Shown here: positions 22,083 to 26,643 of the stretch, piece after piece
Position numbering within the stretch: the first letter of the stretch is position 1
Layout of the letters: each line of letters starts with the position of its first letter
From: an alpha proteobacterium BAL199
Lineage (GTDB): Bacteria; Pseudomonadota; Alphaproteobacteria; Thalassobaculales; Thalassobaculaceae
Length of the DNA stretch: 64,000 bases
NCBI GenBank assembly: GCA_000171835.1
Contig: ABHC01000001.1
Coordinates: 248,001 to 312,000, forward strand
Direction: 5' to 3'
Notes under the pieces: generated by a model
What the model saw: only the letters and a program-made list of their open reading frames with translations
The model's database searches: none
What the model was told of the DNA's origin: nothing
Translations under genes and position numbers: made by a program

Positions 22083-22535
22083 ATGTCCGATGCCCCGGTC
22101 GCCCGCGCAGTCGGCTTCAACCACGTAGCACTTGAGGTCGGTGACATCGACGAAGCGCTGGCCTTCTATGGCCGCCTGTTCCAGTTCGAGCTGCGCGGCA
22201 AGGGCGCGACCTCGGCCTTCATCGATCTCGGCGATCAGTTCCTGGCCCTGCAGAAAGGCCGAATCCAGCCGCCCGATCAGGGCCGGCATTTCGGCTTGGT
22301 CGTCACCGACAAGGAGGCGGTTCGGCAGGCGCTGATCGCTAACGGCGTCGAAGTGTTGCCCGGCCGTTTCCTCGACTTCCTGGATCCCTGGGGCAACCGG
22401 ATCGAGATCATCGGCTACGAGAACATCCAATTCACCAAGGCGCCGCATGTCCTGCGCGGGATGGGACTGGGGGACCTCACGAAATCCGACGGCGCGGTCG
22501 CGGAACTGGCGGCCAAGGGAATGGCGCCGGAGTAG
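22083..22535 (+). CDS. VOC (glyoxalase/bleomycin-resistance) superfamily protein
   Basis: 150 residues with a single VOC module: FNHVALEVGDIDEALAFYGRLF, ALQKGR, HFGLVV and FLDPWGNRIEIIGY, which supply the usual His/Glu metal ligands. The specific reaction is not deducible. AGGGAGAG precedes the ATG. Confidence 0.88.
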   Translation: MSDAPVARAVGFNHVALEVGDIDEALAFYGRLFQFELRGKGATSAFIDLGDQFLALQKGRIQPPDQGRHFGLVVTDKEAVRQALIANGVEVLPGRFLDFLDPWGNRIEIIGYENIQFTKAPHVLRGMGLGDLTKSDGAVAELAAKGMAPE

Positions 22536-22567
22536 ATTGCCCCCTCACCAAGTGATGGAGCCGCACC

Positions 22568-22984
22568 TTGGCCTACGACGACAGCAACGTGTTCGCGCGC
22601 ATCTTGCGGGGCGAGATCCCGTGCGCGCGGGTTTATGAAGACGATGACACGCTGGCCTTCATGGATGCGGGCCAGGTCAACCCGGGCCACGTGATCGTGG
22701 CGTCCAAGCACCCCTGCGCGACCATCCTCGACCTGACTGACGATCAGGCGGCTGCACTGTTCCGAACCGCTGCCAAGGTGGCGCGGGCGGTCGATGCCGC
22801 GTTTGCCCCGGCCGGGATCACCATCCTGCAGGCCAACAAACCGGCCGGCTGGCAGACCGTCCCGCACGTCCATCTGCACGTCCTGCCCCGCCACGAGAAC
22901 GACGGCGTCGACGTGGTCTGGCCGCGCAAGGAGCCGGGCATGGAGGCACTGACGGAACTGGCCAGGCGGATCCGGGTGGCATAG
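22568..22984 (+). CDS. HIT family nucleotide hydrolase
   Basis: 138 residues, with FARILRGEIPCARVYEDDDTLAFMD and the histidine triad HVHLHVLPR (His100, 102, 104). HIT proteins hydrolyse or transfer nucleotidyl groups (for example adenosine phosphoramidates). Start TTG 22568: GGAG lies 7 bases upstream and no in-frame ATG is present before the conserved region. Confidence 0.93.
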   Translation: MAYDDSNVFARILRGEIPCARVYEDDDTLAFMDAGQVNPGHVIVASKHPCATILDLTDDQAAALFRTAAKVARAVDAAFAPAGITILQANKPAGWQTVPHVHLHVLPRHENDGVDVVWPRKEPGMEALTELARRIRVA

Positions 22985-23002
22985 CAATGCCGTCCGGACC
23001 TG

Positions 23003-23473
23003 CTATGCCGACGCGTCGTCCCGGTTGAAATCGACCGGGATGATCGCGACCAGGAGAATGCCGACCGACCCGACGCCTCCACGGGTGAACGGCATGATCA
23101 CCCGGTTGTGCTGCCACTCCTCCGCCATGTCCGGCGGTCGCCGGTAGGTAACGAGATGGGTGATCGGCTGGCGGGCTGAGGTGGCTTCGGCGTAGGTGGC
23201 GAGGAAGGCCGGCCGCAGGGCCGCCGGCAGGGCGTCGGGGTCGTCGAGGAAACGCCCGGTCAGGTCCAGGCCGCGTAGCGCGACCACTGCCGTGCCGTAG
23301 ACCCGGGCCCGATAGCGGACTGGATCGCCGACCAGTTCCACAACCACGATGTACGGCAGCAGGTGGCGGAACTCCGACGGGTCGAACGACTCCCACGCTG
23401 GAAGATCATGTTCACCCTTCAGGCGGTGCCAGCAGTCGATCAGGCGCCGCTGCTCCGACAGGCTGTTCTGCAG
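23003..23473 (-). CDS. PAS_5-family protein with no standard start codon
   Basis: The reading frame encodes ...DLPAWESFDPSEFRHLLPYIVVVELV... RYRARVYGTAVVALRGLDLTGRF, a typical PAS_5 (pfam07310) domain. Between the pntB stop (23495-23497) and this domain the frame has no ATG, GTG or TTG; the first (GTG 23345-23347) would remove about 40 conserved residues. CTG at 23473 with GGGGA six bases upstream would give 156 residues, a normal length. The gene is in the same frame as pntB and 21 bp after its stop. Function unknown. Confidence 0.65.
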   Translation of the reverse strand: MQNSLSEQRRLIDCWHRLKGEHDLPAWESFDPSEFRHLLPYIVVVELVGDPVRYRARVYGTAVVALRGLDLTGRFLDDPDALPAALRPAFLATYAEATSARQPITHLVTYRRPPDMAEEWQHNRVIMPFTRGGVGSVGILLVAIIPVDFNRDDASA

Positions 23474-23494
23474 AGTGTTCCCCGTCGGTGAGCG

Positions 23495-24889
23495 TCAGTG
23501 CTCGAGCGCCTTGACGATTTCCTCGCACATCTTCTTGGCGTCGCCGAACAGCATCATGGTGTTGTCCCGGAAGAACAACTCGTTGTCGACGCCGGCATAA
23601 CCCGACGCCATCGAACGCTTCACGAACAGCACGGTCTTGGCCCGCTCCACATCCAGGATCGGCATGCCATAGATCGGGCTGGTCGGGTCGGTCTTGGCGG
23701 CCGGATTGGTAACATCGTTGGCGCCGATCACGAACGCCACGTCGGCCTGCGGGAAATCGCGGTTGATCTCGTCCAGTTCCAGCACTTCGTCATACGGCAC
23801 GTTGGCCTCGGCCAGCAGCACGTTCATGTGGCCCGGCATCCGCCCGGCGACCGGATGGATGGCGTAGCGAACGCTCACGCCGTTCTTCTTCAGCATATCG
23901 CCCATCTCGCGCAGCGCATGCTGGGCCTGGGCGACCGCCATGCCGTAGCCCGGCACGATGATAACCGACGAGGCGTTGTCCATGATGAACGCCGCGTCGT
24001 CGGCGCTGCCGGACTTCACCGACCGGTCGCCGCCCGGCCCGCCGGCTGCCGCCGCGGTCTCGCCGCCGAAGCCGCCGAGGATGACGTTGAAGAACGACCG
24101 GTTCATCCCCTTGCACATGATGTAGCTGAGGATGGCGCCGGACGAGCCGACCAGCGCGCCGGTCACGATCAGCAGGCTGTTCTCCAGGGTGAAGCCGATG
24201 CCGCAGGCGGCCCAGCCGGAGTAGGAGTTCAGCATCGACACGACCACCGGCATGTCGGCGCCGCCGATCGGCAGGATCAGCAGGAAGCCGAGCGCCAGCG
24301 CCACCACGAAGATCAGCCAGAACCCGGTGGACGACTGGTCGACGATCATCCAGCCGATCAGAGCGACCAGCGCGATACCGAGGGCAGCGTTCAGCGGATG
24401 CTGCATCGGGAACACCAGCGGCCGGCCGGTGACCAGACCCTGCAACTTGCCGAACGCGATGATCGAGCCGGTGAAGGTGATGGCGCCGATCGCCAAGCCA
24501 AGCGACATCTCGATCAGCGAGGCGGCGCCGATCGCGCCCGGCTGGCCGATGCCGTAGGCCTCCGGCTTGAAGAACGCGGCGATCGCCACGAAGCAGGCCG
24601 CCAGGCCGACCAGGCTGTGGAACGCCGCCACCAGCTGCGGCAGGGCGGTCATCTGGATGCGGCGGGCGATGACGGTGCCGATGGCGCCGCCGATCACGAT
24701 GCCGAGGATGATCGTCTCGTAGGACAGCACCGAGGGCAGGGCCAAGGTGGTGCCGATGGCGATCACCATGCCGACGATGCCGAACATGTTGCCTTGCCGC
24801 GCCGTTTCCGGCGACGACAGCCCGCGCAGCGCCATGATGAAACAGACGCTGGAGACGAGGTAGAGAAGGGCCGAGATCGTGCCGCTCAT
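23495..24889 (-). CDS. pntB: NAD(P) transhydrogenase subunit beta
   Basis: 464 residues: about nine membrane helices, then the NADP(H)-binding domain III with VIIVPGYGMAVAQAQHAL, HPVAGRMPGHMNVLLAEA, IGANDVTNPAAK and MASGYAGVDNELF. It couples proton entry to NADPH formation from NADH. Third gene of the pnt operon, 16 bp after pntAB. Confidence 0.97.
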   Translation of the reverse strand: MSGTISALLYLVSSVCFIMALRGLSSPETARQGNMFGIVGMVIAIGTTLALPSVLSYETIILGIVIGGAIGTVIARRIQMTALPQLVAAFHSLVGLAACFVAIAAFFKPEAYGIGQPGAIGAASLIEMSLGLAIGAITFTGSIIAFGKLQGLVTGRPLVFPMQHPLNAALGIALVALIGWMIVDQSSTGFWLIFVVALALGFLLILPIGGADMPVVVSMLNSYSGWAACGIGFTLENSLLIVTGALVGSSGAILSYIMCKGMNRSFFNVILGGFGGETAAAAGGPGGDRSVKSGSADDAAFIMDNASSVIIVPGYGMAVAQAQHALREMGDMLKKNGVSVRYAIHPVAGRMPGHMNVLLAEANVPYDEVLELDEINRDFPQADVAFVIGANDVTNPAAKTDPTSPIYGMPILDVERAKTVLFVKRSMASGYAGVDNELFFRDNTMMLFGDAKKMCEEIVKALEH

Positions 24890-24905: not shown

Positions 24906-25331
24906 TCACTTCTTCTTCCGGAACATCGACAGCATGCGCTGGGTGACCAGGAAGCCGCCGAAGATGTTGACGCTCGCCAGGATCACCGCGAAGAAGCCCA
25001 TGATCGACGAGAAGTCCATCTGGGCCGGTCCGGCGGCGATCAGCGCGCCGACGATGATCACCGACGAGATCGCGTTGGTGACCGCCATCAGCGGCGAGTG
25101 CAGGGCGGGCGTTACCCGCCACACCACGTAGTAGCCGACGAAGCAGGCCAGCACGAAAACCGTGAGGCCGACCACGGCCGGGTCGATCTGGCTGCCGCCA
25201 TGGCCGGCCGAAGGGACTGCGGCGACCGCCTGCTGTCCGGCGCTGGCCGCCGCCTCGGTGGCCTTGGCGGCAAGCGCCTGGGCCTGCTCGGCGAGCGCGC
25301 GCAATTGATCGGTGAGCGAATTCTCCGCCAT
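24906..25331 (-). CDS. pntAB: NAD(P) transhydrogenase subunit alpha part 2
   Basis: 141 residues. Residues 1-45 are Ala/Gln-rich and precede four hydrophobic helices ([38 protein letters not shown]), the membrane part of the split alpha subunit. The three-gene arrangement is the Rhodospirillum-type enzyme. Confidence 0.95.
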
Positions 25332-25341
25332 CGTCGCCTCC

Positions 25342-26643
25342 TCAGGAACCCGAGCCAGAGCTGGAAGCCCCGCCGTCCTTGGCCGTCTTGGGTTTCGCCG
25401 CCGGCTTGCGCTTGGCTGCCGCTTTCGGGGCTGCAGTCTTCGTGGCCGCCGCTTTCGCTGGAGCGGCCTTCGGCGCGGCCGCCTTCGGGGTTGCCGCGTC
25501 CTTGTCGAGCGGCAGCTTCAACACCGCCTCGCTGACCACCTTGCCGCCCTTGCAGACCATCGAGGCTTTGACGATCTCGTCGCTCTCTTCGATCTTCAGC
25601 GCCTTGGCGTCCTTGTCGACCAGCGGGGTCAGGAAGTTCACCAGGTTGCGGGCGTACAGCGCGCTGGCGTCGACCGCGATCCGGCTCGGCACGTTCAGGT
25701 GGCCGACGATTTTCACGCCGTGCTTCTCCACAACCTTGCCCGGCTCCGAGAGCGGGCAGTTGCCGCCCTGTTCGACTGCCAGATCGACGATCACCGACCC
25801 CGGCTTCATGGTCTTGACCATGTCCTCGGTGACCAGCACCGGTGCGGCCCGGCCGGGGATCAGCGCCGTGGTGATGACGATGTCCTGCTTCTTGATGGTC
25901 TCGGCAATCAGCTCGGCCTGCTTCTTCTTGTAGCCGTCGCTCATTTCCTTGGCGTAGCCGCCGGAGGTCTCTGCCTGCTTGAATTCCTCGTCTTCGACCG
26001 CGACGAAGGTGCCGCCCAGGCTCTCCACTTGTTCCTTCACCGCCGGGCGCACGTCGGTCGCTGAGACGATGGCGCCCAGGCGCTTGGCCGTGGCGATCGC
26101 CTGCAGGCCGGCCACTCCGGCGCCCATCACCAGGCAACGCGCCGGCGGCACGGTGCCGGCTGCGGTCATCATCATCGGGAATGCGCGCCCGAATTCCGCC
26201 GCCGCGTCCAGCACTGCGCGATAGCCGGCGAGGTTGGATTGCGACGACAGCACGTCCATCGACTGGGCTCGGGTGATGCGCGGCACCATCTCCAGCGAGA
26301 ACGCTGTCACGCCGTGGGCGGCGATCGCCTCCAGCAGCGCGCGGTCCCGGTACGGCTCCAGCAGGGCCACCAGCACCGCGTTCTTCTTCAGGAGCGGAAT
26401 TTCCTCCAGCGACGGCTTGCGGACCTTCACGACGATGTCAGCGTCCGTCAGGGCGTCTCGCGCCGTCTTCACGATGGTGGCGCCAGCCGCTTGATAGGCC
26501 GCGTCGGTGACGGCTGCCGAGACCCCGGCGCCGGACTCGATCTGGACCTCAAGTCCCAGCGCGATGTAGCGCTTTACGGTGTCCGCAGACGCCGCAACAC
26601 GCCGCTCGCCAGGATGCTGTTCCTTGACGATGCCGATCTTCAT
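25342..26643 (-). CDS. pntAA: NAD(P) transhydrogenase subunit alpha part 1
   Basis: 433 residues from ATG 26643 ([26 protein letters not shown]). The NAD-binding domain I is intact ([65 protein letters not shown]). About 50 residues at the C-terminus, after PLDKDA, are Ala/Lys/Pro repeats ([14 protein letters not shown] style) resembling histone-H1 tails. Typical split alpha1 subunits end near 380 residues, so this is an extension, probably a flexible linker. An in-frame codon at 26709 is not needed. Confidence 0.95.

Follow-up and report, generated by a model that had tools for sequence, protein, structure and literature searches.

The window analysed here is a stretch of 64,000 nucleotides from the marine alpha proteobacterium BAL199, which we take to be a Thalassobaculum and whose genome comprises 69 contigs (6.1 Mb); the window lies on contig C69. 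Its minus strand carries a pntAA-pntAB-pntB cluster, the operon of a proton-translocating transhydrogenase, with genes that match the standard families. Directly behind pntB lies what appears to be a free-standing, single-domain PAS_5 gene. The features of the locus are as follows:

25342..26643, minus strand: pntAA-like subunit (AlaDh_PNT_N + AlaDh_PNT_C), with the start placed at the MKIG methionine by our own choice
24906..25331, minus strand: pntAB-like subunit (PNTB_4TM), by family match
23495..24889, minus strand: pntB (PNTB, PF02233), by family match; it ends ...LEH, with the stop TGA at 23497-23495
23479..23483, minus strand: GGGGA, resembling a Shine-Dalgarno sequence and placed 5 nt ahead of the CTG; GGGG is the pairing part of the computed duplex
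23003..23473, minus strand: gene for a single-domain PAS_5 protein of 156 aa, closed by TAG, with the proposed start at CTG 23473-23471; based on the open frame, the Pfam match, the T. fulvum alignment and the coding signal
23471..23473, minus strand: proposed CTG start codon; before the conserved Trp15 no other NTG or ATN codon lines up in the two orthologs
23345..23347, minus strand: GTG, where the frame has its first standard start, inside the conserved domain
22568-22984, plus strand: HIT-domain gene, convergent, just beyond the PAS gene

A sequence-only reading of this DNA had drawn attention to the junction behind pntB: the pntB frame stays open after its TGA, no standard start precedes the conserved region, and a CTG at 23473 has GGGGA upstream. 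All of this is confirmed. From 23494 the frame runs without a stop as far as the TAG at 23005-23003, and 21 nt separate the pntB stop from the CTG. The first ATG, GTG or TTG is the GTG at 23347, 42 codons after the CTG. A scan of 22500-24000 gave a single terminator-like site, which falls within the HIT gene, and nothing resembling a promoter. Where, then, does translation of the PAS frame begin?

Thalassobaculum fulvum KCTC 42651 (genome G001), a member of the same genus, has a PAS ortholog of about 60-62% identity that also lies behind pntB. In the extracted locus (L009), pntB occupies positions 66-1511, with its stop at L009:1509-1511. The PAS frame runs from stop to stop over L009 1456-2004, in another frame than pntB, and it too contains no ATG, GTG or TTG before codon 43. 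The two PAS proteins align without gaps over 146 residues from the CTG. The earlier reading had proposed comparing the junction in close relatives: in T. fulvum the CTG is conserved, at L009 1522-1524, and so is a G-rich run upstream. These runs, GGGGA in the window and GGGGG in T. fulvum, each end 5 nt before the CTG. The T. fulvum CTG lies 10 nt behind the pntB stop, and its GAGGGGG overlaps the TGA. Leucine codons 5 and 11 are both CTG in the window; T. fulvum has CTA and CTC there, which leaves codon 1 as the sole NTG or ATN codon common to both upstream of Trp15. Retention of CTG is by itself weak evidence, since six of nine later CTG codons at conserved leucines also stayed CTG. A T. fulvum frame at L009 ~1943-2596, which we take from its reading to be an L,D-transpeptidase gene, lies between the PAS and HIT genes; in the window these two genes are adjacent, without the intervening frame.

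Translated from the CTG, both proteins match Pfam PAS_5 (PF07310), with 36.5 bits for the window and 48.3 bits for T. fulvum against a gathering cut-off of 22. The earlier description of a full PAS_5 domain is right as to the family but somewhat generous as to extent, as the window match covers profile positions 6-71 of 137 only. An AlphaFold2 model built from the two sequences has a mean pLDDT of 73, falling below 50 at residues 61-77 and 150-156, and the order of its elements is PAS-like. Its helix at residues 2-19 starts right after the proposed start, with ten-residue blocks at pLDDT 87 and 94. The best Foldseek matches are LOV domains (E 1e-4, with TM of about 0.42-0.49 among the first matches), and other PAS domains come lower; a sequence search of the PDB with the PAS protein gave no convincing match.

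MopJ of Caulobacter crescentus (CCNA_00999) is likewise a single PAS_5 protein without an effector domain. It is 165 aa long, with PAS_5 at 15-147, and regulates motility and the cell cycle (PMC4432633). The window protein differs from MopJ in its CTG start and in its score against the MopJ equivalog NF051868 (cut-off 200), which is 34.7 bits, or 47.6 bits for the T. fulvum protein. With scores so far under the cut-off, we rejected MopJ orthology.

In both genomes, codon usage becomes coding-like from the CTG onwards. Upstream of it the codon log-odds are -0.68 in the window, over as few as 7 codons, and -1.37 in T. fulvum (22 codons); from the CTG to the first GTG they are +0.55 in both (42 codons each).

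Could a frame of this kind arise by chance? To answer this, we set 590,463 bases of the window's contig against 655,710 bases from contig C2 of T. fulvum, a sample of about a tenth of the genome and a single relative. Reciprocal-best pairs of stop-to-stop open reading frames (at least 80 aa, E 1e-15) numbered 1065. Dropping lower-scoring overlaps reduced them to 323, and a filter for coding-like pairs, based on position-specific GC and substitutions, removed 39 more to leave 284. In 28 of these pairs, the first standard start is preceded in both genomes by 12 or more aligned codons. Codon usage in this stretch is coding-like on both sides for the PAS pair alone (+0.50 and +0.54). For each of the other 27 pairs the smaller value is negative, and the next best pair reaches -0.13. 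Judged by codon usage, the absence of a standard start from the PAS frame is more than chance.

The PAS_5-like genes elsewhere in the same genome provide another control. At E 0.001 the BAL199 genome contains 43 places similar to the PAS protein, itself included: a large PAS_5-like expansion, as defined by similarity to the window protein. We used 40 of the other 42; the two omitted are a match with an internal TAG and one in a 1268-aa frame. Each of the 40 carries a standard start (ATG, GTG or TTG) no more than 60 codons ahead of the Trp position (extrapolated in L056 and L064). The control is not perfectly clean, because one paralog, L078, has only TTG codons close to the Trp, 7 and 1 codons before it. 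At the expected place L078 (G000:C54:25077-26534, minus strand; also L090) lacks any standard start codon. It reads ACC ATC ATC after AGGGGA, and its orthologs in two congeners (L091 and L092) keep an ATG precisely 19 codons ahead of the Trp. For L078 an ATC start, a TTG start or decay are all possible.

The Shine-Dalgarno sequence is strong in T. fulvum and weak in the window. Duplex energies were computed over the 18 nt upstream with spacing unconstrained, and the CTG codons inside nine window genes, 161 in all, served as the control. The T. fulvum duplex, at -10.3 kcal/mol, is matched or exceeded by none of the 161. The window duplex, at -5.7 kcal/mol, is matched or exceeded by 29 of them, and five of nine window gene starts have a stronger duplex than the PAS CTG.

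The two-genome comparison shows the gene, its missing standard start in both species, and the point at which coding begins. Three mechanisms had been offered for the junction in the earlier reading: a CTG start, stop-codon readthrough and re-initiation. The first is well supported by the sequence. We propose that the gene very probably encodes a separate 156-aa PAS_5 protein initiated de novo at CTG 23473-23471. Ribosomes would be positioned by the GGGGA 5 nt upstream, and the first residue would be fMet. Points against this are that two genomes only carry the gene, that the Shine-Dalgarno sequence of the window is weak, and that the N-terminal codons are mildly constrained. Initiation at the CTG, cotranscription with pntB, a low output and a sensor role are what we infer from the locus. 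Little PAS protein would be expected, because CTG is an inefficient start, and the product would work on its own as a small sensor or adaptor, in a MopJ-like manner.

A variant compatible with the CTG start is termination-reinitiation, in which ribosomes leaving pntB restart at the CTG and PAS output is tied to pntB translation. The CTG does lie close behind the pntB stop in both species, but re-initiation in native gene pairs drops steeply with distance. According to PMC10666635, the loss in E. coli is 40-80% at +14 nt and nearly complete at +38 nt, and about 20 nt almost abolished coupling. Re-initiation may aid initiation at the CTG; at 21 nt it is improbable as the principal route.

Might the true start instead be the GTG at 23347, with the upstream part untranslated? 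GTG is a standard start codon, and automatic annotation would presumably pick it or drop the gene. The rep gene of the FIB replicon, which likewise has a CTG behind a Shine-Dalgarno sequence, has been mis-annotated in just this way: as PMC11983097 relates, many annotations wrongly take a GTG 14 codons downstream. In the PAS gene, such a truncation costs the Pfam match and coding-like residues. When translation begins at the first GTG, the T. fulvum PAS_5 score falls to 12.9 bits, below the cut-off of 22, and the window protein has no PAS_5 match at E 1. The N-terminal helix is lost as well, and the 42 excluded codons are coding-like in both species. We rejected the truncated start, which we consider very unlikely.

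Another reading is that the gene has decayed or been mis-sequenced, so that its normal start was lost. This would account for a PAS frame without a standard start, and a third genus member (G002, 88% complete) has no PAS ortholog at E 1e-20 and carries a different gene behind pntB (L011), presumably of the FrhB type (coenzyme F420 hydrogenase beta subunit) from its translation. The sequence-only reading had allowed that relatives might carry an ATG-started PAS copy; none was found, and the sole ortholog found also has the CTG. Against decay, the open frame and the CTG are common to two separate genomes, and dN/dS between the window and T. fulvum is about 0.44 over PAS codons 2-147 (NG86; dN 0.30, dS 0.68). 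The N-terminal codons 2-42 are only mildly constrained, with dN 0.44 and dS 0.68 as against 0.25 and 0.68 for the remainder, and their differences are spread almost flatly over the three codon positions (13, 14, 17). Loss of a normal start through decay or sequencing error is highly improbable.

Readthrough of the pntB TGA to give a PntB-PAS fusion is scarcely credible: although the window frame is continuous across the TGA, the PAS gene is out of the pntB frame in T. fulvum, the sole relative with the pair, so readthrough is not the shared mechanism and the window's shared frame looks accidental; the spacer also differs in length (21 nt against 10 nt), and the seven codons from the TGA to the CTG are not coding-like. 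We rejected the fusion on the ground of this frame difference.

How widespread is this PAS gene? At E 1e-20 an ortholog is present in 2 of 61 whole genomes, the BAL199 genome included. Searching with an alignment of the two sequences gave hits in 8 of 36 genomes at 1e-16; among these, the window genome (1.6e-95) and T. fulvum (2.0e-98) alone stood apart, with the next at 2.7e-20. In an even draw across the class (1e-22, at most nine candidates scored per genome), the only positive among 385 genomes was the window genome itself. Scanning genome contigs with the single PAS protein found no ortholog, and with the two-sequence alignment T. fulvum only; plasmid records contained no PAS ortholog at 1e-5.

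Of the 36 genomes of the family, 34 have matches to pntB, 36 in all, and 30 loci were examined downstream (three of them with less than 1.5 kb: 244, 766 and 1251 nt). PAS_5 lies behind two of these 30 pntB ends, those of the window itself and of T. fulvum. It is thus not a customary member of the pnt operon in this family of bacteria; the gene was presumably gained locally or lost elsewhere. A terminator-like hairpin lies within 150 nt of the pntB end at 11 of the 30 loci, by a criterion of ours that missed at least one visible hairpin (L021). Any redox or transhydrogenase link of the PAS protein is a guess from adjacency at these two loci, and no paper in the library searched treats PAS_5 together with transhydrogenase.

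Among bacterial genes, initiation at CTG is firmly established for FIB rep. CTG starts are quoted in PMC11983097 as giving an expression some ten times below that of TTG and as accounting for 20 of nearly 85,000 annotated genes. That source also argues for low expression of FIB rep, a plasmid replication gene whose start is backed by mutation, with CTG to CTC abolishing replication, and by N-terminal analysis; the PAS start is backed by sequence evidence only. A putative CTG start with a Shine-Dalgarno sequence is likewise reported for pop of E. coli O157:H7 (PMC7103648). There pop overlaps in antisense and has been examined by ribosome profiling, whereas the PAS gene is a non-overlapping domain gene. 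The literature on Thalassobaculum start codons, in the portions accessible to us, yielded nothing on such a case.

With its apparent CTG start, the PAS gene illustrates well something that is rare but already known. It matters for two reasons. Gene finding restricted to ATG, GTG and TTG would miss or shorten a real domain gene. In addition, start-codon rules could be tested cleanly on a chromosomal CTG case that two species have retained and in which a frame change excludes shared readthrough. We can imagine that the CTG was selected as a throttle that keeps a PAS_5 sensor low relative to the transhydrogenase, with the sensor reading the state of the NAD(P)H pool or of membrane energisation, but we regard this as distinctly doubtful. 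Thalassobaculum may also tolerate non-standard starts more widely, as the ATC ATC behind AGGGGA in L078 would suggest.
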